A stretch of DNA of 64,000 bases from Vreelandella sulfidaeris. GTDB lineage: Bacteria; Pseudomonadota; Gammaproteobacteria; Pseudomonadales; Halomonadaceae. The notes under the pieces are model-generated. The model was not told the DNA's origin, did no database searches, and saw nothing but the letters and a program-made list of their open reading frames with translations. This document shows, one piece after another, positions 47,963 to 59,877 of this stretch; position 1 is the first letter of the stretch; each line of letters starts with the position of its first letter. The stretch lies in NCBI GenBank assembly GCA_007182875.1, contig AP019515.1, forward strand, positions 1 through 64,000, read 5' to 3'. A program made the translations under genes and the position numbers.

Positions 47963-48864
47963 ATGTCAGACCACGATCATAGCCATAGTGGCGGCAAGAC
48001 CTTGTTGTTCGCACTGGTCTTCACTACAGGTTTTGCAGCTGTCGAAGTGTTCGGTGGCCTGATAGCTGATTCGCTTGCCCTGTTGTCGGACGCAGGCCAC
48101 ATGCTAACCGATTCATTGTCGCTAGGATTGGTGCCTTCGCTGCTTGGCTGGCCAAGAAGCCAGCATCGCGTCAGCACTCCTTTGACTCAAGCGTGCTGAA
48201 ATCCTCGGCGCTCTGTTTAACGTGCTGTTTATGTTCGGGGTGATCGTATTCATCGCTTACGAGGCGATCCGCCGCATGGCAGATACACCCGCCGTTGCCG
48301 GAGGCATGGTTTTGGCGATAGGCGGGCTCGGTTTGCTGGTGAATATCGTAGTGGCTTGGGTGCTGATGCGTGGAGAGCAAACTATAAACGTCCGCGGAGC
48401 GCTTCTGCACGTAATGGGAGACTTATTGGGCTCGGTAGCTGCGCTGGTTGCTGGGGCGGTCATTTATCTGGACGGGCCGCCCATTGCGGATCCGATCCTG
48501 TCTCTTTCGTCAGCCTATTGATACTGGTGTCCGCCATTCGGCTACTGCGTGAGGTGACGCATGTCTTGATGGAAGGCGTGCCAAAGGAATTGATGCGCAT
48601 GAAGTCGGCTGCGCTCTAGTCCGGGTCGACGGTGTCTGCGCTATCCATGACATGCATATTTGGAGCCTGTCATCAAACAGCCAGGCTCTAGTGGCACATA
48701 TCGATGTGGAAGCGATGGAGCGATGGGAAGAGATACTGCCGCAGCTGCAAACGATATTGCGGGAGCGCTTCGATATTGCGCACAGCACCCTACAACCCGA
48801 AGATGCCGCTATCCGCCATGTTTGTGATGCCGATCCTTATTGTGGGGCTGGTAAGGTGAATTAG
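47963..48864 (+). CDS. czcD: CzcD-type cation diffusion facilitator, frameshifted
   Basis: Starts with a His-rich MSDHDHSHSGG, then ALVFTTGFAAVEVFGGLIAD SLALLSDAGHMLTD with the H..DA.HM metal site. Later frames add RRMADTPAVAGGMVLAIGGL, RGEQTINVRGALLHVMGDLL (HxxxD), LMEGVPKELM and the C-terminal domain CAIHDMHIWSLSSNSQALVA. About 300 residues. Exports zinc, cobalt or cadmium by proton exchange. A GAAGGAG site lies before the start. Three indels. Confidence 0.8.
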
Positions 48865-49287
48865 GAGACAACCGGCAGAAGGTCCCGCCGAGGCTGCACG
48901 TAGCAGCATCAATAACTATAGCGCCACTTGATACCCATTATCTCTATCTGGGAATGTACGCCCCGGAGTCCTGCTCCTGAGCCGCTCAGGAGCGTCCGTA
49001 TCAACACTTTTGGCAACGCCAAGTGCTTTCCAACGTGCGGCTTGCATTGTTTCAGAGAAACGGTCACAAGGGCGCGCTCTATATAAACTCAACATAGAGA
49101 TTGTCGCAGCAATTATTGTTTAGTCGCAGCAATTGTTGAAAATGACACCAGCGCCTTGCTAATGACGTTGTTGGGCAGGGGGATATTGCACAGTCAGCTC
49201 TAGAAACAGCCCTGCCTGGCGGCTGAGGCTGAGGGGAACGTTGCACAGCAGCAATTAAAGATGTGAGAAATGCTTTGTTCAGCGTGA
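48865..49287. other. Gap between czcD and the 49.3-kb unit
   Basis: About 420 bp without a supported gene. A perfect 10-bp-arm hairpin GCTCCTGAGC C GCTCAGGAGC lies at 48973-48993 and may terminate czcD transcription. A 12-bp direct repeat GTCGCAGCAATT occurs at 49103 and 49123. Confidence 0.5.
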
Positions 49288-49313
49288 AGAAAGACCCTCA
49301 AAAGAGGGTCTAG
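49288..49313 (-). terminator. Terminator after the 49.3-kb gene
   Basis: Minus strand AGACCCTCTTTTGAGGGTCTTTC: 8-bp perfect stem with a T run. Confidence 0.85.
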
Positions 49314-49323
49314 GAAAAGCTCA

Positions 49324-49722
49324 TCAGAACATTTCGAGCTTTGGAATGTTATCAGCGGCGGTATCGATCCCTTCAAGAAGCTCGATGCCGCGAGCCAGTG
49401 CATTCTGAGCCAGCTCAAAAGCACTAGCGTTAAGACGGGCATTATTATCGTCCCTATTGACCTCAACCCCACTTCTTGCGAATTCAACATCGCTCAAAAG
49501 CACGGGTTGGCTACCTATCTTTACTTCGACCTTGGCGGACAGCATACCGAAGAACCACTTATGCTCAGCAAAAGCTTCCTTATCGGAATCTGAGTACCTA
49601 TCGAAGAAGTCCGGGGTCACCACTGGATCATTGTCGAGCATCAGTGTGACGGTTAAGTGGCCATTCGTACCTGTAACGGTGTCACCACAGATTGCAAAGC
49701 CGTCAAATTTATTAAGTTCCAT
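49324..49722 (-). CDS. Hypothetical protein in a leader-terminator unit
   Basis: Intact, 132 residues. It starts MELNKFDGFAICGDTVTGTN, has TVTLMLDNDPVVTPDFFDRY and KIGSQPVLLSDVEFARSGVE, and ends DNIPKLEMF. Mixed alpha/beta, acidic, no membrane segment. Leader C precedes it and a terminator follows, so it is transcribed alone. The intact frame shows that not all genes here carry errors. Family unknown. Confidence 0.6.
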   Translation of the reverse strand: MELNKFDGFAICGDTVTGTNGHLTVTLMLDNDPVVTPDFFDRYSDSDKEAFAEHKWFFGMLSAKVEVKIGSQPVLLSDVEFARSGVEVNRDDNNARLNASAFELAQNALARGIELLEGIDTAADNIPKLEMF

Positions 49723-49786
49723 GATCGTTCCTCTCTCATTCCTGCTGAATTGCAGGTCTCAAGAAGAGATAGGGACTCCACTGACA
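49723..49786 (-). promoter_or_regulatory. Shared structured leader, copy C
   Basis: Minus strand: TGTCAGTGGAGTCCCTATCT, TTGAGA, hairpin CCTGCAATTCAGCAGG, AATGAGAGAGG, ATG. One of the clearest copies. Confidence 0.75.
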
Positions 49787-49814
49787 CAACTGGTGAGGCT
49801 CTGTGCAGCGCAAT

Positions 49815-49843
49815 GAAAAGGCCCCTCGATCTTGAGGGGCCTT
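49815..49843 (-). terminator. Terminator after the 49.9-kb gene
   Basis: GAAGGCCCCTCAAGATCGAGGGGCCTTTTC-type stem (minus strand), 10-bp arms, T run. It closes the unit at 49880-50185. Confidence 0.85.
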
Positions 49844-49879
49844 CAGGATGAAATAAAATCTCGTTAAGCCTCAATGAAA

Positions 49880-50185
49880 CTACAGGTTCTCTCGAAACCC
49901 TAAGGCTTTAAGTTTCTTAATAAACTTTTCTGGAGTTATCTCTTTGCCATCCAGTTCAGCCAGTAAATTCAGCACATCTTGCATAGAGTACAGGGCTTTC
50001 CAATCATCCTGATAAACATGCAATAAAGGGAGTGATTACCCACTGAATGCAGAACTCCCCGGCTGTCCCACCATCGATATGGTACAACCCGATATAAATC
50101 TGCTCAGTGGCCCCTGCTGGAGGCTCATCCCATCCATACTGCTGTTGAGCATGTAACCCTTGAAGCAGCCCTCGAACTCTTTCAT
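49880..50185 (-). CDS. Small hypothetical protein, frameshifted
   Basis: Start at 50185 after leader D. Corrected product of about 100 residues: RVRGLLQGLHAQQQYGWDEP, IYIGLYHIDGGTAGEFCIQW, then LLHVYQDDWKALYSMQDVLN and ITPEKFIKKLKALGFRENL. Two indels. Family unknown. The C-terminal half is helical and charged. Confidence 0.5.
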
Positions 50186-50247
50186 ACGGTCTCCTTAGTC
50201 ATTCCTGCCCGTTGCAGGACTCATCATTGGTAGGGCGCAGAGTGACC
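50186..50247 (-). promoter_or_regulatory. Shared structured leader, copy D
   Basis: Minus strand: GGTCACTCTGCGCCCTACC, GATGAGT, hairpin CCTGCAACGGGCAGG, AATGACTAAGGAG, ATG. Confidence 0.7.
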
Positions 50248-50313
50248 CTTGGAGGCCTTGAGTGCTAGATGGCCGCAACCAGTCGATAGGCTACAGTATA
50301 AAACATGGACGTT

Positions 50314-50724
50314 TCACGCAGCCGCCCGGTCGAGCATTGACCGAACGTGCGGATTCGCATCCCTACCATCACCTTCGACTCCCTGGGCAGGTCGATTGAG
50401 TGAGGCGCCAGCCCATAGAGCCACAGCAGCAGACCGGCTCACCCCGGCAGTGCAGTGAATGACCAGCTTCACCGGCCTGCGATCGCTGGACCACTGGCGA
50501 ATCCACCCAGAAATTCTCTGTGCATCCTCGAGCGTCATGGGTTCTTCGCAGCCGAAGCCTTCACCGGGAACGACATCATCAAACTGCATTAAGAGAACAT
50601 CATCCCCTTTGCCAAGCGAGTTGAACGCTCGTCAAGCCCTCGAATGGACAGGACTACAGTATCGGCGCTTGCTTGCCGGCGCTCGATGTCACGTCGACTT
50701 GTATATTCGATGCTAGTGATCATT
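50314..50724 (-). CDS. Dual-specificity/tyrosine phosphatase-like protein, one frameshift
   Basis: Start at 50724 (MITSIEYTSRRDIERRQASA). After a shift near 50610: DDVLLMQFDDVVPGEGFGCE, DAQRISGWIRQW and the P-loop LVIHCTAGVSRSAAVALW. The HC(x5)RS motif with Cys and Arg intact and the general-acid Asp upstream mark a cysteine phosphatase. About 136 residues. A stray phosphatase in a plasmid unit could act on host phosphoproteins or nucleic-acid 5' phosphates. The start overlaps the end of the preceding gene by 12 bp. Confidence 0.65.
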
Positions 50725-51055
50725 GGTTATCTCATTCCGGTTGGTTAGGGCATGGAGGGCTTGCTCGCGAACTCGTCCTGCGAGGTGAATCCTCATCGCA
50801 TACTCGACGGCCGCGGAGCGAGATCGCTTTCGTGAAGCCAGGCGATTGATGTGCTGCTGGGTATCGATCACCAGGGCTTGTGCGGCAGCGACATATCGCA
50901 ACAGGGTTTCGCGTTGGGGTACTTAGGATGGGAGCAATCCCATGACAGGCGAATACAAGCCTCGCCAATGACGGACGACCGAGAAAAGGATTATCCAGAT
51001 AGTGTGTCACCAGCGTCTCGCCGGCCTGATCCACCTGCTCAACACGTTGCTGCAT
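50713..51055 (-). CDS. Hypothetical protein, frameshifted
   Basis: Start at 51055 (MQQRVEQVDQAGETLVTHYL), then NPFLGRPSLARL. After a shift near 50910: RYVAAAQALVIDTQQHINRL, SRKRSRSAAVEYAMRIHLAG and ALHALTNRNEITNDH. About 113 residues, helical and basic. It overlaps the phosphatase gene, so the two form one transcript. Confidence 0.45.
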
Positions 51056-51125
51056 GCGATCCCCTATTGTCCCCAGGCTCATGAATGGCTGGTTATAGGG
51101 AGTTAGGGATGGCAATGACACAGAA
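51056..51125 (-). promoter_or_regulatory. Leader-like sequence, weak copy F
   Basis: Minus strand: TGTCATTGCCATCCCTAACT, then ATGAG and a GGGG-rich segment before the ATG. The TGTCA and CCCTA parts fit; the hairpin is not clear. Confidence 0.4.
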
Positions 51126-51129
51126 TGAG

Positions 51130-51166
51130 AAAGCCCCAACTAGCGAACTAGAAGGGGCTTGAAGGT
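51130..51166 (-). terminator. Terminator after the 51.2-kb gene
   Basis: Minus strand AAGCCCC TTCTAGTT CG ... GGGGCTT TC: nested arms CTAGTT/AACTAG extend the stem to about 15 bp; T run follows. Confidence 0.85.
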
Positions 51167-51182
51167 AAAACCTTGAATCTGA

Positions 51183-51354
51183 TCAGCTGAAAGCTGCAGA
51201 TTTGCTGTGCAAGACAGCTTTACCTGGAGCGAAATGCCACAGGGATTCCTCAAGGAGGTTATTATCAGGACTGCTGACGTAAGCGCCCTTGCGTGATAGC
51301 CGAAAAGCCCGCGGGCCTTGTCGAAACAACCTGACAATCAACCTTAGAGGTCAT
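51183..51354 (-). CDS. Small hypothetical protein, one frameshift
   Basis: Start at 51354 (MTSKVDCQVVSTRPAGFSAI), shift near 51280, then SPDNNLLEESLWHFAPGKAV and a stop at 51183. About 57 residues. Preceded by leader G and followed by a terminator. Family unknown. Confidence 0.4.
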
Positions 51355-51428
51355 CGTGATTAGCAATTTCCGTTTCCATACCGTTCAATGAACGGCCTCG
51401 CCAATAAGATAGGGACATGGGTGACATC
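51355..51428 (-). promoter_or_regulatory. Shared structured leader, copy G
   Basis: Minus strand: TGTCACCCATGTCCCTATCT, CGAGG, hairpin CCGTTCATTGAACGG, then ATGGAAACGG. The distance from hairpin to start codon is longer than in A-D. Confidence 0.6.
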
Positions 51429-51706
51429 TGGGAAGTTAATATCGGAAAAATAATCCCCAACCGACAATCTCGCTCAGTTGAGGGAAGGCTGGATAGGCAG
51501 GATTTGGCGGCCATGATCTTATTTCGAGCTGCCGTTAGTAGAATCAATTTCACAGGCGGTGAGCGCCCGAAGGTATCGCTTCAATGTCTCGCGATCGGTA
51601 ATCGCAGTGCCCACCATGGCGCGGCCCCAGCGGCGCCCGCCTGAGTAAAATGTCTATTTCAGCACTTCTCCTTTATCTATCTTGTCTAGGCAGCATTACT
51701 GATAAG
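51429..51706. other. Gap between leader G and the 51.7-kb gene
   Basis: About 280 bp. No supported gene. Short frames on both strands lack ribosome sites. Confidence 0.3.
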
Positions 51707-52596
51707 CTAGGTAGCTTGGGGTTGGTTGAAATCGATTGTGACATCCCTGTCCGGTAGCTCCTCGCACTGACCGACAAGCTGGCGACCGCTTTCTCCCGGT
51801 AAGTCGATGCGAACGTCAATGTGTCCTATCTGTCTTCTGCATCGCATCTGCTCTCGAACGACCGAGAAGGGGCCACCCATTGGCCATGAGGGTTTCGTCG
51901 AAGTTTCATCCAATAATATTCGATAGGCTTCATCCTGACGCCTTTCGGTACTGAGTTAACCCCGAAGCACAATAATCTATTCAATAGAAAATTCACGTTG
52001 TCGAGACGACGACGATTCAGCCCGTTGTTGATGATCCCTTCCCCGATGAGTTGTGATAACGCGATTAAGGCTCTAAGCGTAGCTTCATCTAGCGGTGGAA
52101 GAGGCATACCGTCTCTACCATAGCCCGATAAGGTGAGGGGTTTCCACAAACTGAGCTTGTCGATGAATCAGGCTATGGCGATACTCTATTGTAGACACGT
52201 AACAAGTCAGCATTCCTTCCCAGGTGCAGGTTTCCTCGGTTAGGATCACGCCATTCAGCGTACCGCTCATTGCGAGACGAGCCTTTTCCTTAATTGGCCA
52301 GAGCTTAGCTTCCCGCTGAGGTTTTATACCTTGTTCCGCCAGCGCAAGCTCGATCGTAAGATCAAGCACCTTCCAGGCTGCTCCAAACGCCAATGGCAAG
52401 AAAGCTGCACGTAGGCTGTCCTCTCGATTGGCTTGAATGTGGCTCGCCCCGTTCTGTATAACGTTTTTCCTCCATCAATTAGGGGACGTATATCGATGTA
52501 GCTTCCAGATGTCTGGGCTGTCAGAGGTAAATACCGGTCAAGAGCAAAACGTTCAAAGGCAGTCTCTGCCTCGTACTCATTAATGTTAGTGATCAT
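51707..52596 (-). CDS. Hypothetical protein, several frameshifts
   Basis: Start at 52596 (MITNINEYEAETAFERFALD). Fragments RYLPLTAQTSGSYIDIRPLI, AAWKVLDLTIELALAEQGIK, KEKARLAMSGTLNGVILTEE and LNNGLNRR-type basic text reassemble to about 290 residues. The first ten codons share bases with the phosphatase gene start (both begin ATGATCACTA). No family recognised; mostly helical, no membrane segment. Confidence 0.4.
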
Positions 52597-52683
52597 TGGT
52601 AGGGCCTATTACAAGCTACTGTTTAAACTTAAATCAGCTGGATGTGGCACCTAACTCACTTAGATTGGCAACAGTTTGGCGAT
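52597..52683. promoter_or_regulatory. Upstream of the 52.6-kb gene, partial leader H
   Basis: Only GCCCTACC directly before the ATG (minus strand) matches the leader family; the hairpin is missing. The rest of this short gap shows nothing else. Confidence 0.3.
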
Positions 52684-53787
52684 TCAGACAGTCAGTCTTG
52701 CCCAGCTACCCTCCATTTCAACAGGGACTTCGATCCAAGTGAGGCGCAAACGACCGGCTACTTTCGCCAAGGCCTCGTATTCTGCAACTCCCAGGCAGCG
52801 TAACATCGTACCTTTCCCTGGATAATAAGGTGTTTCAGGATACTCTCTGAAAATTAGCTTCGGGTTGTATTCAGTTCCAGTACGGTCGTGTTTCCCACTG
52901 AAAGGGAATCCCTATTGACTGAGGTGTGATGCCGGCTTTGAGAGCGTCGCAACTGGCAATGTTCTCATAACTGTCTTGAAGCGATCCTGCCAAGTTGTTG
53001 ATGGATCGATCGCTTTCAAAAGTGCTTGGAGCGCGACGGTCCGGGAAAAGAAAATCCTTGATCAGGGTTGCCTGGAAACTCGGAGTGGATAGCATTCGCG
53101 CTTTGAGGGCTGTCAGCGCCGACATTATTATTCCAGACCCTGCTATGGTGGGCACAATTATTACGCAGCATGGTTGTGCTTTTGAGCCACGACACAATGA
53201 CCTTTCATCGTAGCCAAACTGTGTAGCCACTCGCCTCCGATGTTCGCGATCAAGACTGGCAAGCAACCGCGACATTTGGCCAATGCTTAACTCCTCCAAG
53301 ATTGTCCAGATCGGCGGATAAGGCGGCGTATGGTAAGTGTGGTAATAGTGCTTAATGGGGTTGGTAAGTCTCAATCCAAGACGTTCTTCATGAAATTGCG
53401 GTGCGCTTCCATGTCCTTGAAATGTTTGGTTTTGAGATAGAAGTGGGGCCGCAGTCTTTGTCATTGGCCATAGCGTTAACTATGGCGGATCTGAACGCGA
53501 CTTCTACTTGTTCAATAGCGTCAAGGAGCACTAGCCGAAGACTACGATCGAACTCGTAAAGCGCAAGAATATCGTCAAACCTTACACCCGGATAAAACGT
53601 TTTGATCATCCTGCAGCGGCCGCGTATAAATGAGCAGCTGGTAATACCCGACAAACTGAAGGACATTAAGTGCTTGTGATTGCTGACCTTTGGTGATGAG
53701 GCCCTTGGCGCGAAGATGACGAAGGTGGGCGTAAGAGGATTTTGCGGGTTTTGTGAAGTTTAGTTGTGGTTGCAGTTGTGGCCCCAT
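52684..53787 (-). CDS. abiF: Abi_2 (AbiD/AbiF-like) HEPN abortive-infection protein, frameshifted
   Basis: Corrected length about 365 residues, start at 53787 or 53802. The Abi_2 opening is clear: [40 protein letters not shown], then [20 protein letters not shown] and [16 protein letters not shown]. The catalytic HEPN motif is visible in frame at 53145-53165: [15 protein letters not shown], with R-N-x3-H as in Abi_2 and Cas13 RNases. [20 protein letters not shown] precedes it. The C-terminal part ([20 protein letters not shown]) may belong to the same gene or to a small second one. Four indels. Toxins of this group cleave RNA when released, and AbiF proteins have been reported to pair with an RNA antitoxin. 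Here two structured repeats and a terminator precede the gene. Confidence 0.8.
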
Positions 53788-53802
53788 ACATTCTTTTACC
53801 AC

Positions 53803-53855
53803 TAAAAACTAACCCCTGGTGCGCAGTCAGGACGAATCCTGTGAGGCGTGGGGTT
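53803..53855 (-). terminator. Terminator between repeat RNA and the Abi gene
   Basis: Minus strand: AACCCC ... GGGGTT outer stem with an inner CAGGA-TTCG-TCCTG hairpin (UUCG tetraloop), followed by TTAGTTTTTAG. It would end most transcripts from the repeats just before the toxin ORF. Confidence 0.65.
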
Positions 53856-53859
53856 ATTC

Positions 53860-54095
53860 TTATCTTAAATAGTAGGCTTCTACTGTTCTCGTGTCAATCT
53901 AGACTGTTTCCTATCTTGAATGGGTACCCGTCCCAGGGGAACCTTGGCTGATACAAGTCCACTTGCAGTAGTAGACTTCTACTGTGCCCATGCCAATCTA
54001 AGCTGTTTCTTATCCGTAATGGGTGCTCGGCCCAGGATGAACCTTGGCCAGGACTAGCCTACTTGCAGTTGTACGTTTTGTCTGAGGAGTAAAAG
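53860..54095 (-). ncRNA. Predicted two-repeat antitoxin-like RNA upstream of the Abi gene
   Basis: Two direct repeats of about 99 bp (53871-53969 and 53970-54069). Both carry the hairpin AGTAG-(G/A)CTT-CTACT, CAATCTA, a CTGTTTC/TTATC block, GGCCCAGG...CCTTGG-type stem and ACTTGCAG at the end. They differ at about a fifth of positions, often in loops. No ORF fits. Transcribed toward the toxin gene, bounded by a candidate promoter and a terminator. Confidence 0.6.
53871..54069. repeat. ~99-bp direct repeat, two copies, upstream of the Abi gene
   Basis: Copy 1 53871-53969, copy 2 53970-54069. ACTTGCAGT recurs at 53961 and 54061 and AGTAG(G/A)CTTCTACTGT at 53871 and 53970, giving a period of 99-100 bp. 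The stem CCAGG...CCTTGG is present in both. Confidence 0.9.
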
Positions 54096-54098
54096 GCA

Positions 54099-54128
54099 GC
54101 TATAGGGGAATGTTGCACCGGAATCCAA
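54099..54128 (-). promoter_or_regulatory. Candidate promoter of the repeat RNA
   Basis: Minus strand: TTGGAT (54123-54128), 18 bp, TATAGC (54099-54104). Transcription would begin about 25 bp before the first repeat. Confidence 0.4.
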
Positions 54129-54618
54129 CGTATAGCCTGTATAAAATTCATCGAATTTCACATGTTTGGTTGGAAGTACTTTACCTATACACCAAGATGA
54201 ATATAGAAAAGCGACTGGACATTATCTTAGTAAACTTTATAAGCATCCACAGGGGAAGCATGATTCTCGACGCTATCGATGGCTGGGACGATTACCCACG
54301 ACGCATTTTGACCGTGAAGCAACTATACGAGGTATTGCCGAATGGATTGATGCCGAAAGCAGTGTCATGCCTTACGCGGTCTTGCATTGTGATGGCGTTA
54401 GTTTTCGCGTGGCTGTGCGCGATTATGAAGAGCAAGATTTAATCTTGGCGGCCGATGAGTACGGGCATCGTTCAGCAGCAGGGCTTTGGGCGCTTTCGGC
54501 GAGCTGATTGACACGGCAAAACGTCGAATGGAAGGAAAGAGTCCTGGCCAGAAGGCCCGGCGCTAGATGAAATTAGGCTCTACCAGAAAGAGCGTGAAGT
54601 CGAAAAGCTCAACACTAT

Positions 54619-55805
54619 GGTAATCCCCATTTTCAGAGGGTTTCAAAAGTAGAGTTCAGACCACAGCGGCCAGTTTCTGTTGAGGGTGATCCCTCCAAGC
54701 CCCATATTAGGGCGCTCGTGATTGTAGTGCCAGAGCCAACGAGTGGCGTAATCCTGAACCTCTTCGGTACTTTCAAACAGGTATTGGGCTAACCAGTCAT
54801 AGCGCACCGTTCGATTGTAGCGTTCTATATAAGCATTCTGCTGGGGTTTTCCTGGCTGGATAAACATCAGCTGAATACCTTGACCTTCCGCCCATGCCGA
54901 TAACTTACCACTGATATATTCTGGCCCGTTGTCACAACGAATAGAGTGCGGCTTACCACGCCATTCAATGATCTGGTCTAGCGCCCGGATAACTCGTTCA
55001 GTAGGCAACGAGATGTCTACTTCGATACCAAGACCTTCTCGGTTAAAGTCGTCGATCACATTCAGTAGACGGTAGCGACGACCGTCGCTCAGTTGGTCAT
55101 GCATAAAATCCATAGACCAGCTGTCATTAATCGTTTCAGGCACCGCTAAAGGTTCAGGCTTCTCGCGGATTAACCGTTTCTTCGGTTTGATCCGAAGATT
55201 CAGCTCCAACTCTCGGTAAATCCGGTAGACCCGCTTATGGTTCCAACGAAAGCCTTTCACATTACGTAGGTGCAGGAAGCACAAGCCAAAGCCCCAGTTT
55301 CTCTGGTTATGCGTCAGCGTGATCAACCAGTCGGCGATTTGATCGTTCTCGCCGCGGAGCTTCGCTTGGTATCGATAGCAATTTTCACTGATGCTAAACA
55401 TCCAGCAGGCTAGGCGGATGCTGACGTGCTTTTCCATGACGGCTTTCTGCGCCATCTCACGGCGACGAGACGGCTTCACCACTTTTTCGATGGCTTCCTT
55501 GAGGATATCCGCTTTCAATCGTTCCTCGGCATACATCTTCTTGAGCCGTCGGTTTTCATCCTCTAGCTCTTTTAGCCGTGCCATCATGGACGCATCCATA
55601 CCACCGAATTTAGCTCGCCACTTATAGAAGGTCGCGCTGCTCATACCGTGCTCACGACATAGCTCCGGAACCGGGGCACCGCCTTCGGCTTGCTTGAGGA
55701 TTGACAGTATTTGGCTGTCAGAAAACGTGATTTTTCATGCAGAATCTCCCTGCGTTTAGCTTACGGAAAATTCTACTTTGAGCACCCTGGTTTTCGGGGA
55801 TTACC
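54619..55805 (-). mobile_element. IS3-family (IS407-group) element, copy B, complete
   Basis: 1187 bp, ends GGTAATCCCCATTTTCAGAG and GGTAATCCCCGAAAACC (inverted repeats), flanked by the 4-bp duplication CTAT. Nearly identical to copies A and C. Confidence 0.95.
54643..55735 (-). CDS. IS3-family transposase (OrfA/OrfB), copy B
   Basis: The main frame (54643-55644) runs [20 protein letters not shown], the leucine-rich coiled coil [20 protein letters not shown], then the OrfB part with the rve DDE motifs ([20 protein letters not shown], and the [12 protein letters not shown]lu). OrfA and OrfB are open in one frame here. The first 30 residues (starting at the ATG near 55735; [14 protein letters not shown]) are out of frame because an A run and a T run are each one base short. 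Copy C shares both shortenings, so they may be real or systematic. This copy has the best-preserved DDE region. Confidence 0.85.
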
Positions 55806-55995
55806 CTATGGCCACGTTATTTATCCAGCGCGAACCCCATATCGTCAATGAAATAGAATACGGCGCTCAGCCGGGCAACTCGATCTGGACGCTGCATCGC
55901 TGCCAGAATGCTTGTGGGATGAATTTGAAGCAGAAGGAGAGGCGTTTAAGCTCGTCTTAGAGGAAGAAATTTACCACCGCGTGAATAAGAAGTAA

Positions 55996-56219
55996 CACGC
56001 TGCGAAGAATTGCCAGCCGGGTTTCTACATCCAGATGGCATGACACAACATCAAACACCAAAAGTCCGGCCCTATACGACGTTTTTAACCTGTTAAAAGA
56101 ATATAGATAACACCTATGTCGACGGGTGTCGAAATGCAGGCCTAGTGGTTTAATAGGAGTAGGGCTTTTAGCGAAGCTGCTGGTTAATTCTAGTCAGACA
56201 AAACCGATGAGGTAGCACC
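55996..56219. other. Gap downstream of the IS-split gene
   Basis: About 220 bp with no gene seen. GACGGGTGTCG and similar pieces could pair, but no T run follows. Confidence 0.3.
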
Positions 56220-56372
56220 GTGATTGAGTGCGAAGGCATGAAGGATGATGAGACGCCATGCGCGCGAGAAGCAGTTCACAATATACCAGCTGTGGTGTTC
56301 GGCCAGGAACGCCAATTATTGCTTTGTAATGACTGCGTGCCAAAATATGTAGAGGAAGAAGACGACCTCTAA
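56220..56372 (+). CDS. Small Cys-containing protein (50 aa)
   Basis: GTG start at 56220 to TAA at 56370: MIECEGMKDDETPCAREAVH, QLLLCNDCVPKYVEEEDDL. Four Cys (C4, C14, then CNDC) suggest a small zinc ribbon. A terminator follows at 56449. Intact. Family unknown. Confidence 0.5.
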   Translation: MIECEGMKDDETPCAREAVHNIPAVVFGQERQLLLCNDCVPKYVEEEDDL

Positions 56373-56448
56373 TTAGGTGCTATTACCTGCTACGTTCGCA
56401 TGAATGGGTAAGCAGATTTTCATAATGGCCAATATTTAAACCTTGATA

Positions 56449-56470
56449 CCCGGCAATAAGCCGGGTTTTG
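56449..56470 (+). terminator. Terminator after the 56.2-kb gene
   Basis: CCCGGC AATAA GCCGGG TTTT. Strong stem with T run on the plus strand. Confidence 0.8.
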
Positions 56471-56498
56471 CGTCTCAATTAGCGAGGCTAATTGATAC

Positions 56499-56533
56499 AA
56501 AACCCAACGTCGCGGTACGTTGGGTTTTCCGAA
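56499..56533. terminator. Bidirectional terminator after higA
   Basis: AAAACCCAACGT CGCGGT ACGTTGGGTTTT: 10-bp arms with A and T runs on either side. Serves higA on the minus strand. Confidence 0.8.
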
Positions 56534-56549
56534 TTAATATCTTACTAAT

Positions 56550-56830
56550 TCAAACAGCTGCAAATCTTTCAATATGGTTCTGTTCTTTATGCTCGGCGTG
56601 CCATAGCTCATAGTTTGCCTGCATCGTTAGCCAGTGCTTGGCATTGCCAATTCCGCCATGCTCTAACTTAACGGCCAAATCGGAAATAGCGGCATGCTCA
56701 TGTAATACGCGTGAAACTGCTGCACGAGACATGCCTAACTTTTGGAAAATTCAGTGACGTTCAGCCCCAGCGCTGGCACGATCCGACGGCGCAATAAGCT
56801 ACCTGGGTGCGGCGGGTTCATCATGGTCAT
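56550..56830 (-). CDS. higA: HigA-type antitoxin, one frameshift
   Basis: Start at 56830. MNPPHPGSLLRRRIVPALGL NVTEF is the HigA opening (HPG..L), and after a one-base loss SKKLGMSRAAVSRVLHEHAA is the XRE helix-turn-helix, followed by GIGNAKHWLTMQANYELWHA, the conserved HigA tail. About 93 residues. It neutralises HigB and represses the operon. Confidence 0.8.
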
Positions 56831-56915
56831 GTTTCAGTTCTCTCTACACAAATTGTGTATCGCATATTTGAGGTGTTGCATTCATGGCTACGTCTGCGAG
56901 GCCATCTTTCTGGGC

Positions 56916-56947
56916 CCTTGATAACCGTACCGAGCCGGTTATCAAGG
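56916..56947. repeat. Strong hairpin between higB and higA
   Basis: CCTTGATAACCG TACCGAGC CGGTTATCAAGG: perfect 12-bp arms. It lies in the 126-bp gap between toxin and antitoxin genes, where the usual higBA spacing is only a few bases. Confidence 0.85.
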
Positions 56948-56956
56948 AACGCCGGG

Positions 56957-57230
56957 TTAGTGGTAGTCTAAATAGTCAACAAGGTGTACATCTTCCCCAT
57001 CAAACGTAAATATCACTACCCAATTACCGTTTACATGCACCGAAAAGCCTTTTCTATCACCCTTCAAACTATGAAAATCAAATCCTGGCAAATTCATATC
57101 GTTTGGCTTAGTGGCTGCGTCCAGTGCAGCAAGTATGTCTCTTAAATCGTCTACATGGTTTGGTTGTACTCCTTGGGATTCTCCTCTCATAAAGACGTTT
57201 AAGCCCTTTGTGTTTGATCTTCTTTATCAT
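56957..57230 (-). CDS. higB: HigB-type mRNA interferase toxin, one frameshift
   Basis: Start at 57230 (MIKKIKHKGLKRLYER), a one-base change, then GVQPNHVDDLRDILAALDAA, LPGFDFHSLKGDRKGFSVHV and NWVVIFTFDGEDVHLVDYLD YH. This is the RelE/HigB fold with the conserved HPLKG.R...V..NWRI.F..D pattern (here HSLKGDR). About 91 residues. It cleaves mRNA on ribosomes. The toxin gene precedes the antitoxin gene, typical for higBA. Confidence 0.8.
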
Positions 57231-57268
57231 CGCATTGCTTTGCTCCCTTGTTGTGAAACGCCCTCGAA

Positions 57269-57289
57269 GTGTAGCGCGTAACGCTACAC
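57269..57289. promoter_or_regulatory. Palindromic operator upstream of higB
   Basis: GTGTAGCG CGTAA CGCTACAC: perfect 8-bp arms 39 bp before the higB start. Probable HigA binding site. Confidence 0.65.
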
Positions 57290-57403
57290 GCGTCAATGAC
57301 AGCTGAGGTAGAAACTGCTTAAAGGTGGCATGGCTGACAGTACAGGAGCAGTTGTTCCGCCAACTAGATTGGCCCCGATTGAGGTGAAAAACGGGTGTGC
57401 TCA

Positions 57404-57937
57404 TTAACGTGCTTCTCTCATTCCTGCAGTAGAACAGGTTTTAAGAGGGTGCTGTAAAGGGTCGACCTCTAGGCGATCTCCAGCGGCTATACCATGCTCA
57501 TTGAAGTAGCCAGCGTTTACCTCCAGGGCCATCCAGAAGCGCGTGCCAGCTGGATAACGCGGACAGGCTTCTTCTCGTGCAGGGGCCATGCTGGTGATCG
57601 ACTGGATCTCTCCGTCATGGTCGAGGAAGGCAATATCAAGCGGTATACGAGTTTGGTACATCCAGAAAGCATGATCGGTTGTCTGCTCCTCATCATAGAC
57701 GAAGAGCATGCCAGCATCGGGAGCCATTGAGTCACGCTCCATTAGGCCATTGCGACGCTGGCGCGAGGTAGATGCCACCTCAAGCATGAGCGAATATCGG
57801 CCTTCCTTAGCGTGCAAAACACCAGAGGAAAATGCAGTGGCCTGTCGAAGAATCATCCCCGTGATTAGAGCAGTGCCAATCAAGAAAAGCGCCAAAATGC
57901 GGATACTTTTCGGGTCGTGGGCCGATCGAACCCACAA
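57404..57937 (-). CDS. DUF192 secreted protein
   Basis: Intact. An N-terminal membrane segment (ILALFLIGTALITGMILRQA), then the DUF192 fold: STSRQRRNGLMERDSMAPDA, MLFVYDEEQTTDHAFWMYQT, IPLDIAFLDHDGEIQSITSM and ARFWMALEVNAGYFNEHGIA (TRFWMALE). Function of DUF192 is not settled. The C-terminal residues LKTCSTAGMREAR are encoded by a copy of the shared leader, whose TTCTACTGCAGGAATGAGAG forms this text, so the natural end has probably been replaced. Confidence 0.7.
   Translation of the reverse strand: MWVRSAHDPKSIRILALFLIGTALITGMILRQATAFSSGVLHAKEGRYSLMLEVASTSRQRRNGLMERDSMAPDAGMLFVYDEEQTTDHAFWMYQTRIPLDIAFLDHDGEIQSITSMAPAREEACPRYPAGTRFWMALEVNAGYFNEHGIAAGDRLEVDPLQHPLKTCSTAGMREAR
57405..57445 (-). 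promoter_or_regulatory. Shared structured leader, copy I
   Basis: Minus strand: CACCCTCTTAAAACCTG, loop TTCTACT, GCAGGAATGAGAGAAG, then ATG of a short frame that decays. The upstream TGTCA part is missing. Confidence 0.55.
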
Positions 57938-57988
57938 GCCTTTGTTGACGCTGAAACATTATCACCTGGGCTCCAGAATAAAATCAGA

Positions 57989-58694
57989 ATGTCACCCAAG
58001 ATAGAGCCGAGGGTGACCGTAACGGTTAGGGTTTGGGGAACATATTATGCTGGCGACCACATTACTGGTCCGCTGGCTGCGCCATGCTCACTGGGCCAGC
58101 CCAGCAGCCGTGCAGCACGCTATTGAATTTTCACACTTAGCAGCCCGGGTAACGCTCCCAGCAGCTAGCGCCAGCGAACTCGGCATCATCCAATGGCACC
58201 GATGGCCGCTTTGCTTAGGGACGATATTGCCTACTGGCGACCAGGGCGAACGGGGCTGCAATGTCAGCGCTTGCCTTATCCAGCGGCCGCTGGACTCACA
58301 TCGACCACCTACGATGACAACTTCAGCTGCTCGATCAGAGACATCATCTCCCTGGCGTCTGGGAAAGGCGATCTCGTCGGCTACGCCACTCTCGACGCCT
58401 ATGCTATCGGCGAATGTCGCGAATTGGTTCACAACAACCGTGCCAGCATCGAACCTTTGCCCAACTGGCATGAACTCCGCTTCCATGGCGGTTCTGGCGC
58501 TGAAGAGTCAGTAGAAGGTTTCAGTTGGCGGCCCTGGGGATACCATCTAAACAACCAGGGTGGCGCCCATCACTTCGCTACAGCTTGTCTGATTGCTGGC
58601 TTCCTCGATCCTGAGCTGCGCATAAAAGCTCCCTTGACCAGGCATGAACTGAACACCGAGGTCGCCCAAGTTATTCTCAGCGCCTTCGACATCT
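57989..58694 (+). CDS. Hypothetical protein, C-terminus hit by IS copy C, frameshifted
   Basis: From the ATG at 57989 (MSPKIEPRVTVTVRVWGTYY AGDHITG), through shifts near 58070 and 58220, to SCSIRDIISLASGKGDLVGY, LDAYAIGECRELVHNNRASI, FSWRPWGYHLNNQGGAHHFA and TRHELNTEVAQVILSAFDIW. The IS supplies TGG-TAA as the new end. Beyond the IS the original frame would have read FDIFASQSTTQ and stopped in an ATGA overlap with the next gene. So only about nine residues are lost. The N-terminal third is uncertain. Family unknown. Confidence 0.45.
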
Positions 58695-59877
58695 GGTAAT
58701 CCCCATTTTCAGAGGGTTTCAAAGTAGAGTTCAGACCACAGCGGCCAGTTTCTGTTGAGGGTGATCCCTCCAAGCCCCATATTAGGCGCTCGTGATTGTA
58801 GTGCCAGAGCCAACGAGTGGCGTAATCCTGAACCTCTTCGGTACTTTCAAACAGGTATTGGGCTAACCAGTCATAGCGCACCGTTCGATTGTAGCGTTCT
58901 ATATAAGCATTCTGCTGGGGTTTTCCTGGCTGGATAAACATCAGCTGAATACCTTGACCTTCCGCCCATGCCGATAACTTACCACTGATATATTCTGGCC
59001 CGTTGTCACAACGAATAGAGTGCGGCTTACCACGCCATTCAATGATCTGGTCTAGCGCCCGGATAACTCGTTCAGTAGGCAACGAGATGTCTACTTCGAT
59101 ACCAAGACCTTCCGGTTAAAGTCGTCGATCACATTCAGTAGACGGTAGCGACGACCGTCGCTCAGTTGGTCATGCATAAAATCCATAGACCAGCTGTCAT
59201 TAATCGTTTCAGGCACCGCTAAAGGTTCAGGCTTCTCGCGGATTAACCGTTTCTTCGGTTTGATCCGAAGATTCAGCTCCAACTCTCGGTAAATCCGGTA
59301 GACCCGCTTATGGTTCCAACGAAAGCCTTTCACATTACGTAGGTGCAGGAAGCACAAGCCAAAGCCCCAGTTTCTCTGGTTATGCGTCAGCGTGATCAAC
59401 CAGTCGGCGATTTGATCGTTCTCGCCGCGGAGCTTCGCTTGGTATCGATAGCAATTTTCACTGATGCTAAACATCCAGCAGGCTAGGCGGATGCTGACGT
59501 GCTTTTCCATGACGGCTTTCTGCGCCATCTCACGGCGACGAGACGGCTTCACCACTTTTTCGATGGCTTCCTTGAGGATATCCGCTTTCAATCGTTCCTC
59601 GGCATACATCTTCTTGAGCCGTCGGTTTTCATCCTCTAGCTCTTTTAGCCGTGCCATCATGGACGCATCCATACCACCGAATTTAGCTCGCCACTTATAG
59701 AAGGTCGCGCTGCTCATACCGTGCTCACGACATAGCTCCGGAACCGGGCACCGCCTTCGGCTTGCTTGAGGATTGACAGTATTTGGCTGTCAGAAAACGT
59801 GATTTTTCATGCAGAATCTCCCTGCGTTTAGCTTACGGAAAATTCTACTTTGAGCACCCTGGTTTTCGGGGATTACC
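58695..59877 (-). mobile_element. IS3-family (IS407-group) element, copy C, complete
   Basis: 1183 bp, same inverted repeats as copy B, flanked by the 4-bp duplication ATCT. It is in direct orientation with copy B and 2.9 kb away. Confidence 0.95.
58709..59806 (-). pseudogene. IS3-family transposase, copy C, frameshifted
   Basis: Same protein as copy B but broken at about 59112, where one base fewer in a TTCCGG context (TTCTCGG in copy B) shifts the frame between VIDDFNR and the DDE second half. The start segment shares the shortened homopolymers of copy B. Confidence 0.85.

Follow-up and report, generated by a model that had tools for sequence, protein, structure and literature searches.

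The AbiF family is thought to be the source of Cas13, and the abiF RNA motif was reportedly discovered by Weinberg and colleagues in 2017. In type III toxin-antitoxin systems of the ToxIN type an RNA antitoxin and a terminator stand before the gene for a ribonuclease toxin. For AbiFCd of C. difficile, one study describes toxicity, neutralisation by the RNA RCd22 both in cis and in trans, and direct binding between RNA and protein (PMC12373285); it also describes a need for the RCd22 stems, read-through transcription into the toxin gene and an architecture in which promoter, hairpin RNA, terminator and toxin gene follow one another (PMC12373285). For PbAbiF, a second study presents 8VZ6 as the complex of the protein with its ncRNA (AbiFr), and describes toxicity and RNase activity, a single RNA on each monomer and inhibition exerted by nucleotides of a bulge (PMC12737573).

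The locus described here lies on the minus strand of the window (the whole 64-kb stretch of DNA that was analysed, a plasmid-like stretch from a Halomonas-like bacterium), where two direct repeats are followed by a hairpin at 53805-53860 and then by an Abi_2 gene. The gene ends at about 52871, rather than at 52684 as given in a preliminary description of this DNA. The features are as follows.

52871..53787, minus strand: Abi_2/AbiF (AbiD) HEPN toxin gene, in several frames here and open in same-genus relatives
53805..53860, minus strand: hairpin of a likely abiF-type antitoxin RNA, long-loop form, from an R1 match, upstream placement in relatives and covariation
53869..53897, minus strand: putative proximal promoter TTGACA-17-TACTAT, the sole site in the consensus scan, within the proximal repeat
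53870..53968, minus strand: proximal 99-nt repeat, a promoter/upstream region probably lying mostly outside the RNA
53968..53996, minus strand: distal promoter-like site TTGGCA-17-TACTAC, read by eye and absent from the scan list
53969..54073, minus strand: distal repeat copy, from the repeat alignment

Among toxin-antitoxin systems it joins an established group, that of AbiF with abiF RNA (type III-like), as a further member. We consider it highly probable that the locus is an AbiF toxin-antitoxin module in which the hairpin RNA is the antitoxin and the 99-bp repeats arose when the promoter region was duplicated, and the small RNA preceding the AbiF-type HEPN toxin gene is very probably the antitoxin of that gene. 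The preliminary description had proposed a candidate module of RNA antitoxin and Abi_2 toxin; the module holds, with a conserved hairpin linked to the gene, but the element named there as antitoxin has to be replaced, since the element first called a terminator is the likely antitoxin RNA. With AbiFCd/RCd22 of phi027 the locus has in common an Abi_2 HEPN protein with an RN.CAH motif, a promoter, an abiF hairpin RNA, a terminator and, presumably, read-through (PMC12373285), although RCd22 has two abiF motifs in one RNA, whereas the window has a single motif, which bears an additional apical stem and lies on a plasmid-like contig. PbAbiF-AbiFr (8VZ6) offers a protein that is homologous over its whole length by profile comparison, and a cognate hairpin RNA. 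The layout is also that of the ToxIN-type systems, but the toxin family differs and the antitoxin of the window is not a tandem repeat.

The hairpin was compared with its relatives by means of a covariance model, R1, built from 20 long-loop hairpins upstream of Abi_2 genes in Pseudomonas, Alphaproteobacteria, a gammaproteobacterial MAG and viral contigs, with neither Halomonas sequences nor solo copies among them. Its sole match in the 64 kb up to an E-value of 10 is at 53805-53860 on the minus strand (37.3 bits, E-value 4.7e-9), and by this measure the window has one abiF-type motif, not two. Taken together, R1, the position of the Rfam abiF model (RF03085) in relatives and covariation reveal a conserved core and an outer and an inner stem directly upstream of Abi_2. 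RF03085, which has a cut-off (gathering score) of 37 bits, matches the same element in the Phyllobacterium and Legionella loci (L022 and L023; 46.3 and 42.0 bits), and an abiF RNA scoring 37.6 bits with Rfam stands before the Abi_2 gene of phage phiC2. Since RF03085 occupies the position of the hairpin in relatives, the element taken for a terminator sits at the site of the abiF RNA. The window hairpin has its position, the core CCAnGCCTC..TGCnCA and the outer and inner stems in common with RF03085 but differs in a loop enlarged by an apical stem of 5-6 bp, and here the Rfam model is silent: the gathering score is reached nowhere in the window, a permissive Rfam scan of 53400-54400 gave one weak snoRNA match (E-value 3.4) and no abiF, and a further run of the Rfam abiF model on the window gave no match, its controls being silent as well. 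Nor did the model match the long-loop copies L013, L014, L017, L018 and L020.

The hairpins used for R1 had been chosen by a pattern that fixes the core letters, the inner stem and the last outer pairs, and letter conservation in the alignments (A4 and A5) is therefore partly built in; by our own reading, in A4, on which R1 was built, MAFFT displaced the 3' arm by about one column in the rows from Pseudomonas. The bacterial sample comprises the best 80 of 431 Abi_2 loci from a scan of genome contigs, 12 of which contributed to R1 and match by construction. Among these best 80, R1 (E-value at most 0.01) finds the hairpin on the gene strand near Abi_2 in 70, its end lying anywhere from 15 nt inside the protein match to 250 nt upstream of it, with a median of 28 nt upstream; there are two more matches elsewhere in the 80 loci and none in the other ten. 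A simple pattern had detected it in 42. For viral Abi_2 loci the figure is 16 upstream matches in 66, and four of the 16 had gone into the model, R1 being a model of the long form. When 97 matches up to an E-value of 1 are aligned to R1, 97.0 % of the pair cells are standard and 15 of 16 pairs are changed on both sides, values as high being seen in 0 of 500 shuffles, and slid structures score far lower than the true one. The MAFFT alignment gives 98.0 % standard cells and seven pairs changed on both sides (2 of 500 shuffles for that measure, 0 of 500 for the others), with covariation in five of the six pairs of the apical stem. Against the module we have counted the silence of Rfam, the ten bacterial loci lacking R1, the low viral figure and the pattern-picked letters, together with the broken frame here and the two-piece annotation in KO116 discussed below.

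An AACCCC..GGGGTT stem with an inner UUCG-capped stem, as given in the preliminary description, can be read in the sequence. A terminator scan, which permits no internal loops, lists none on the minus strand at the locus, and its designation as a terminator rests on the stem and the U-run visible in the sequence. The U-rich 3' tail of the hairpin probably doubles as an intrinsic terminator. That it is an intrinsic terminator only, with the toxin controlled by something else, would suit a U-run after a G+C-rich stem, but is very improbable, since the hairpin corresponds position by position to the abiF RNA in relatives, three separate stems covary, the scan fails to list it, and solo copies with paired stems exist away from any Abi_2 gene.

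The -10 box of the proximal promoter ends 8 nt before the start of the hairpin model. Shuffles give a mean of 1.0 site of this kind in the consensus scan here, so that about one is expected by chance; in a promoter-placement test 0 of 200 shuffles score as well as the proximal site. An E. coli-type score was applied to 36 loci, both relatives and five solo copies, and in 26 of them the top-scoring promoter-like site ends 7-10 nt short of the hairpin. No more than five of 200 shuffles are as good in 19 of the 36, with more in the other 17, and by this score most alphaproteobacterial loci have no convincing site. The distal promoter-like site occupies the same place in the distal repeat and is kept in the distal copy of the relative. 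Farther upstream, the TTGGAT-18-TATAGC promoter of the preliminary description is readable at 54099-54128 and is absent from the consensus scan list. The RNA probably starts at the hairpin, which would place the repeats almost wholly outside it.

Two direct repeats of about 99 bp are indeed present, with starts 99-100 nt apart and blocks that are 79 % and 77 % identical, and each copy ends in a promoter-like site. They had been proposed to be transcribed into an antitoxin RNA of two units, on the model of ToxIN-like type III systems, and the promoter-like sites upstream of and within them are in keeping with this, since any long transcript begun at the distal sites would cover the repeats. However, among the other Abi_2 loci that bear the hairpin and offer at least 200 nt upstream, 74 in number, not one has a tandem match above 57 % identity over 60 nt; the window reaches 78 % and L006 73 %. 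The repeats had been expected upstream of close homologues, and they do occur in same-genus relatives, yet in none of these 74 loci. The 'conserved hairpins' ascribed to them likewise fail to appear. Over four rows (two copies in each of two lineages) the CCAAGG..CCTGGG stem is paired in 75 % of cells with a mismatch in every row, the AGTAG..CTACT stem is paired in 95 % of cells and overlaps the -10 box, and neither shows a change on both sides in these four rows. Compared with shuffles, the whole units have z-values of 0.24, -1.17, -2.35 and -0.21, each copy in each lineage folding into a different shape; the value of -2.35, from the proximal copy of a relative, is the sole one better than shuffles and the only folding result on the side of a two-unit antitoxin, while the L006 hairpin has a z-value of -2.03. 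The repeats also diverge like the flanking DNA (176/205 identical positions against 192/215 beyond them, between the Halomonas lineages L016 and L006), and the proximal promoter sits inside them. Tests of linkage, folding and stems thus found no tandem-repeat antitoxin RNA of the ToxIN-like kind, and a two-unit antitoxin is highly improbable; the repeats would instead be a lineage-specific tandem duplication of the promoter region.

A 301-base region containing the RNA was matched in 7 of 97 genomes: the window's own, the same-genus G054, G047, G019, G020 and G031, and G080, which is of another family and matched in the hairpin only. The L005 sequence diverges from the window within the distal repeat. 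In homologues from Pseudomonas plasmids (n=5, 49-60 % amino acid identity) and from Phyllobacterium and Legionella (one each, 36 %) the hairpin adjoins the gene, and no 99-bp repeats were found upstream of these homologues. The hairpin travels with the gene; the repeats do not. Between L016 and L006 the hairpin is identical at 61 of 62 positions and the gene at 910 of 920. Identity is about 98-99 % over hairpin and gene and 86-89 % just upstream. This pattern suggests that hairpin and gene moved as one cassette, in which case the faster divergence of the repeats need not reflect relaxed selection.

The Pfam Abi_2 domain (PF07751, cut-off 25.6 bits) is found in two ORF pieces of the window (51.7 and 34.8 bits; E-values 1.7e-13 and 2.6e-8) and reaches 162.9 bits in an open relative; PADLOC AbiD gives E-values of 4.7e-56 in the relative and 5.2e-13 in the first window piece. 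The HEPN motif RNNCAHH can be read in one frame of the window, and residues R210, N211 and H215 are invariant in nine aligned relatives. Domain and motif are therefore as first described, but a single intact gene is not, as the sequence lies in several frames. A profile of the toxin matches chain 8vz6_A among solved structures over its full length (E-value 4.1e-67). Two weak short matches to WD-40 proteins in the structure profile search (E-values 0.002-0.006) were taken as chance.

The window is 98.6 % identical to a plasmid of Halomonas sp. KO116 (L016) over 569 queried bases. In 8,700 aligned bases there are 67 indels, and in all 67 it is the window that lacks bases, 53 of them falling in homopolymer runs of four or more; there is one mismatch in a 5,763-base block and 38 in a 2,937-base block. 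Since the indels are all losses from the window and mostly in homopolymers, under-called homopolymers are the best reading of the several frames, and the frameshifts look like sequencing errors. KO116 is itself annotated with two Abi pieces and L004 is likewise split into two ORFs, so a real frameshift or decay in this lineage is possible. It is nonetheless unlikely that we are looking at a pseudogene in decay whose RNA has been left behind: the several frames and the two split relatives would agree with this, but the one-sided indels, the few mismatches, an assembly of the window's own genome rated only 74.6 % complete and the fact that four genomes of the same genus (L005-L008) read through the Abi_2 domain in a single open frame all speak against it. 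L005 departs from the others over a short stretch. Missing bases are frequent throughout 48001-59500 of the window, mostly in homopolymers, and short ORFs of the window are thus not safely read as pseudogenes.

Two neighbouring regions may be mentioned. A transposase-like ORF at 54643-55644, which we take to be of IS3 type, lies inside a gene divergent from the Abi_2 locus; in L004 and L006 the 182-aa ORF of this gene is uninterrupted, and neither Pfam nor PADLOC gives a match for the protein of L006. ORFs on the minus strand at 56550-57190 lie at the place of a RelE/ParE-HigA toxin-antitoxin pair that is annotated near the Abi genes of the KO116 plasmid, the match being by place only.

Computed results are the hairpin, which is conserved, covaries and is linked to the gene, the promoter-like sites at a preferred distance and the protein family. 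RNA binding, neutralisation, RNase activity, the dimer and termination at this locus, along with the toxicity of its AbiF, would follow by analogy with the AbiFCd/RCd22 and PbAbiF reports. The promoter at the end of the proximal repeat would start a transcript at, or a few nucleotides before, the hairpin of about 56 nt. Most transcripts would stop at its U-tract and yield a stable small RNA; read-through would give the mRNA of the toxin, predicted to be a HEPN ribonuclease working as a dimer. The hairpin RNA would bind the toxin and hold the RNase off, and loss of the RNA, perhaps when a phage shuts down host transcription, would free the toxin to cut RNA and stop growth.

Hairpins of this type are also found without a toxin gene. 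At an E-value of 1e-4, R1 matches 9 of 293 genomes of the order, Abi_2 being present in six of the nine; none was found in G080 (which has two hairpins), G346 or G199. Long- or short-loop abiF-type hairpins having no Abi_2 in their genome or record are L009 and L011 (G080), L171 (G346), L176 (G199), L013, L014 and L015. The contig of L171 is 38.5 kb long and has no Abi_2 ORF, although both the stem and a promoter-like site are retained. On viral contigs the long-loop pattern gave ten stretches, five adjoining Abi_2 and five (L196, L197, L013, L014 and L015) having no Abi_2 ORF. The short core motif occurs in at least 120 viral stretches (IMG/VR, L201-L320); among the 120 listed, which are neither a census nor a random sample, 116 have no Abi_2 ORF in the fetched DNA, one adjoins Abi_2 and three leave no room for it. 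PF07751 was found in 0 of 20 whole viral records, many of which are short contigs, the four named phages being complete records. These 20 sources were chosen by hand and comprise the named phages (Acinetobacter phage Acj61, Roseobacter phage CRP-143, Rhizobium phage RHEph21 and Brevundimonas phage Bajun; L321-L324), two long-form contigs and 14 of the at least 120 short-form contigs. Sixteen of them reach the Rfam abiF cut-off, Bajun (L324), L196, L197 and L203 falling below it.

The outer stem is paired at 6/6 positions in 71 of 89 distinct cases, as compared with 10.6 % when the 3' flanks are swapped, the search pattern having fixed this stem only in its last two 5' letters. A tRNA lies within 300 nt of 25 of these 89 cases (7.1 expected), and no downstream gene is shared, 61 ORFs falling in 53 clusters. 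The Acj61 copy follows a tRNA array at a distance of about 1.9 kb, five genes separating the two, and that of CRP-143 stands between the gene for scaffolding and the gene for the capsid. The RHEph21 copy, preceded by a small ORF and followed by a tRNA, lies between the genes for capsid assembly and for the major capsid protein; the one in Bajun, which matches weakly, falls within a tRNA array. BLAST searches of named phages with short hairpins as queries returned three or four records per query, so the solo copies look patchy, short-query BLAST being insensitive.

The most likely reading of the solo copies is that they are decoy antitoxins, the alternatives being remnants of toxin loss or a use unrelated to AbiF. 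It is quite possible, if somewhat short of probable, that the toxin-less abiF RNAs of phages and of some plasmid-like elements act in trans to disarm the AbiF of the host. Several observations count against this, the patchy occurrence among them. A DNA region of lactococcal phage sk1 is said, in work by Rince and colleagues in 2000, to protect phage 712 from AbiF; sk1 has no abiF match up to an E-value of 10, which speaks against a simple RF03085 decoy there, and we rejected that reading for sk1. The AbiF gene of an Acinetobacter johnsonii plasmid has a longer-loop abiF-like hairpin (33.1 bits, below the cut-off), unlike the short form of Acj61, abiF was not matched in another Acinetobacter locus (L327) either, and no match between the Acj61 RNA and a host AbiF RNA was found at either locus. 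An abiF sRNA has been reported in cyanophage S-CREM1, with three other phages counted in Rfam; the part of that report used here offers no anti-defence reading, which does not establish that decoys are absent from print.

For the window, these results correct which RNA is likely to be the antitoxin, and they indicate that, at least for those copies from Halomonas, Pseudomonas and viruses that were tested, the long-loop form escapes the Rfam model. The viral solo copies may matter more than the window's own module: if the decoy reading is true, they would represent RNA counter-defence against Cas13-related AbiF toxins and a way in which phages escape AbiF.
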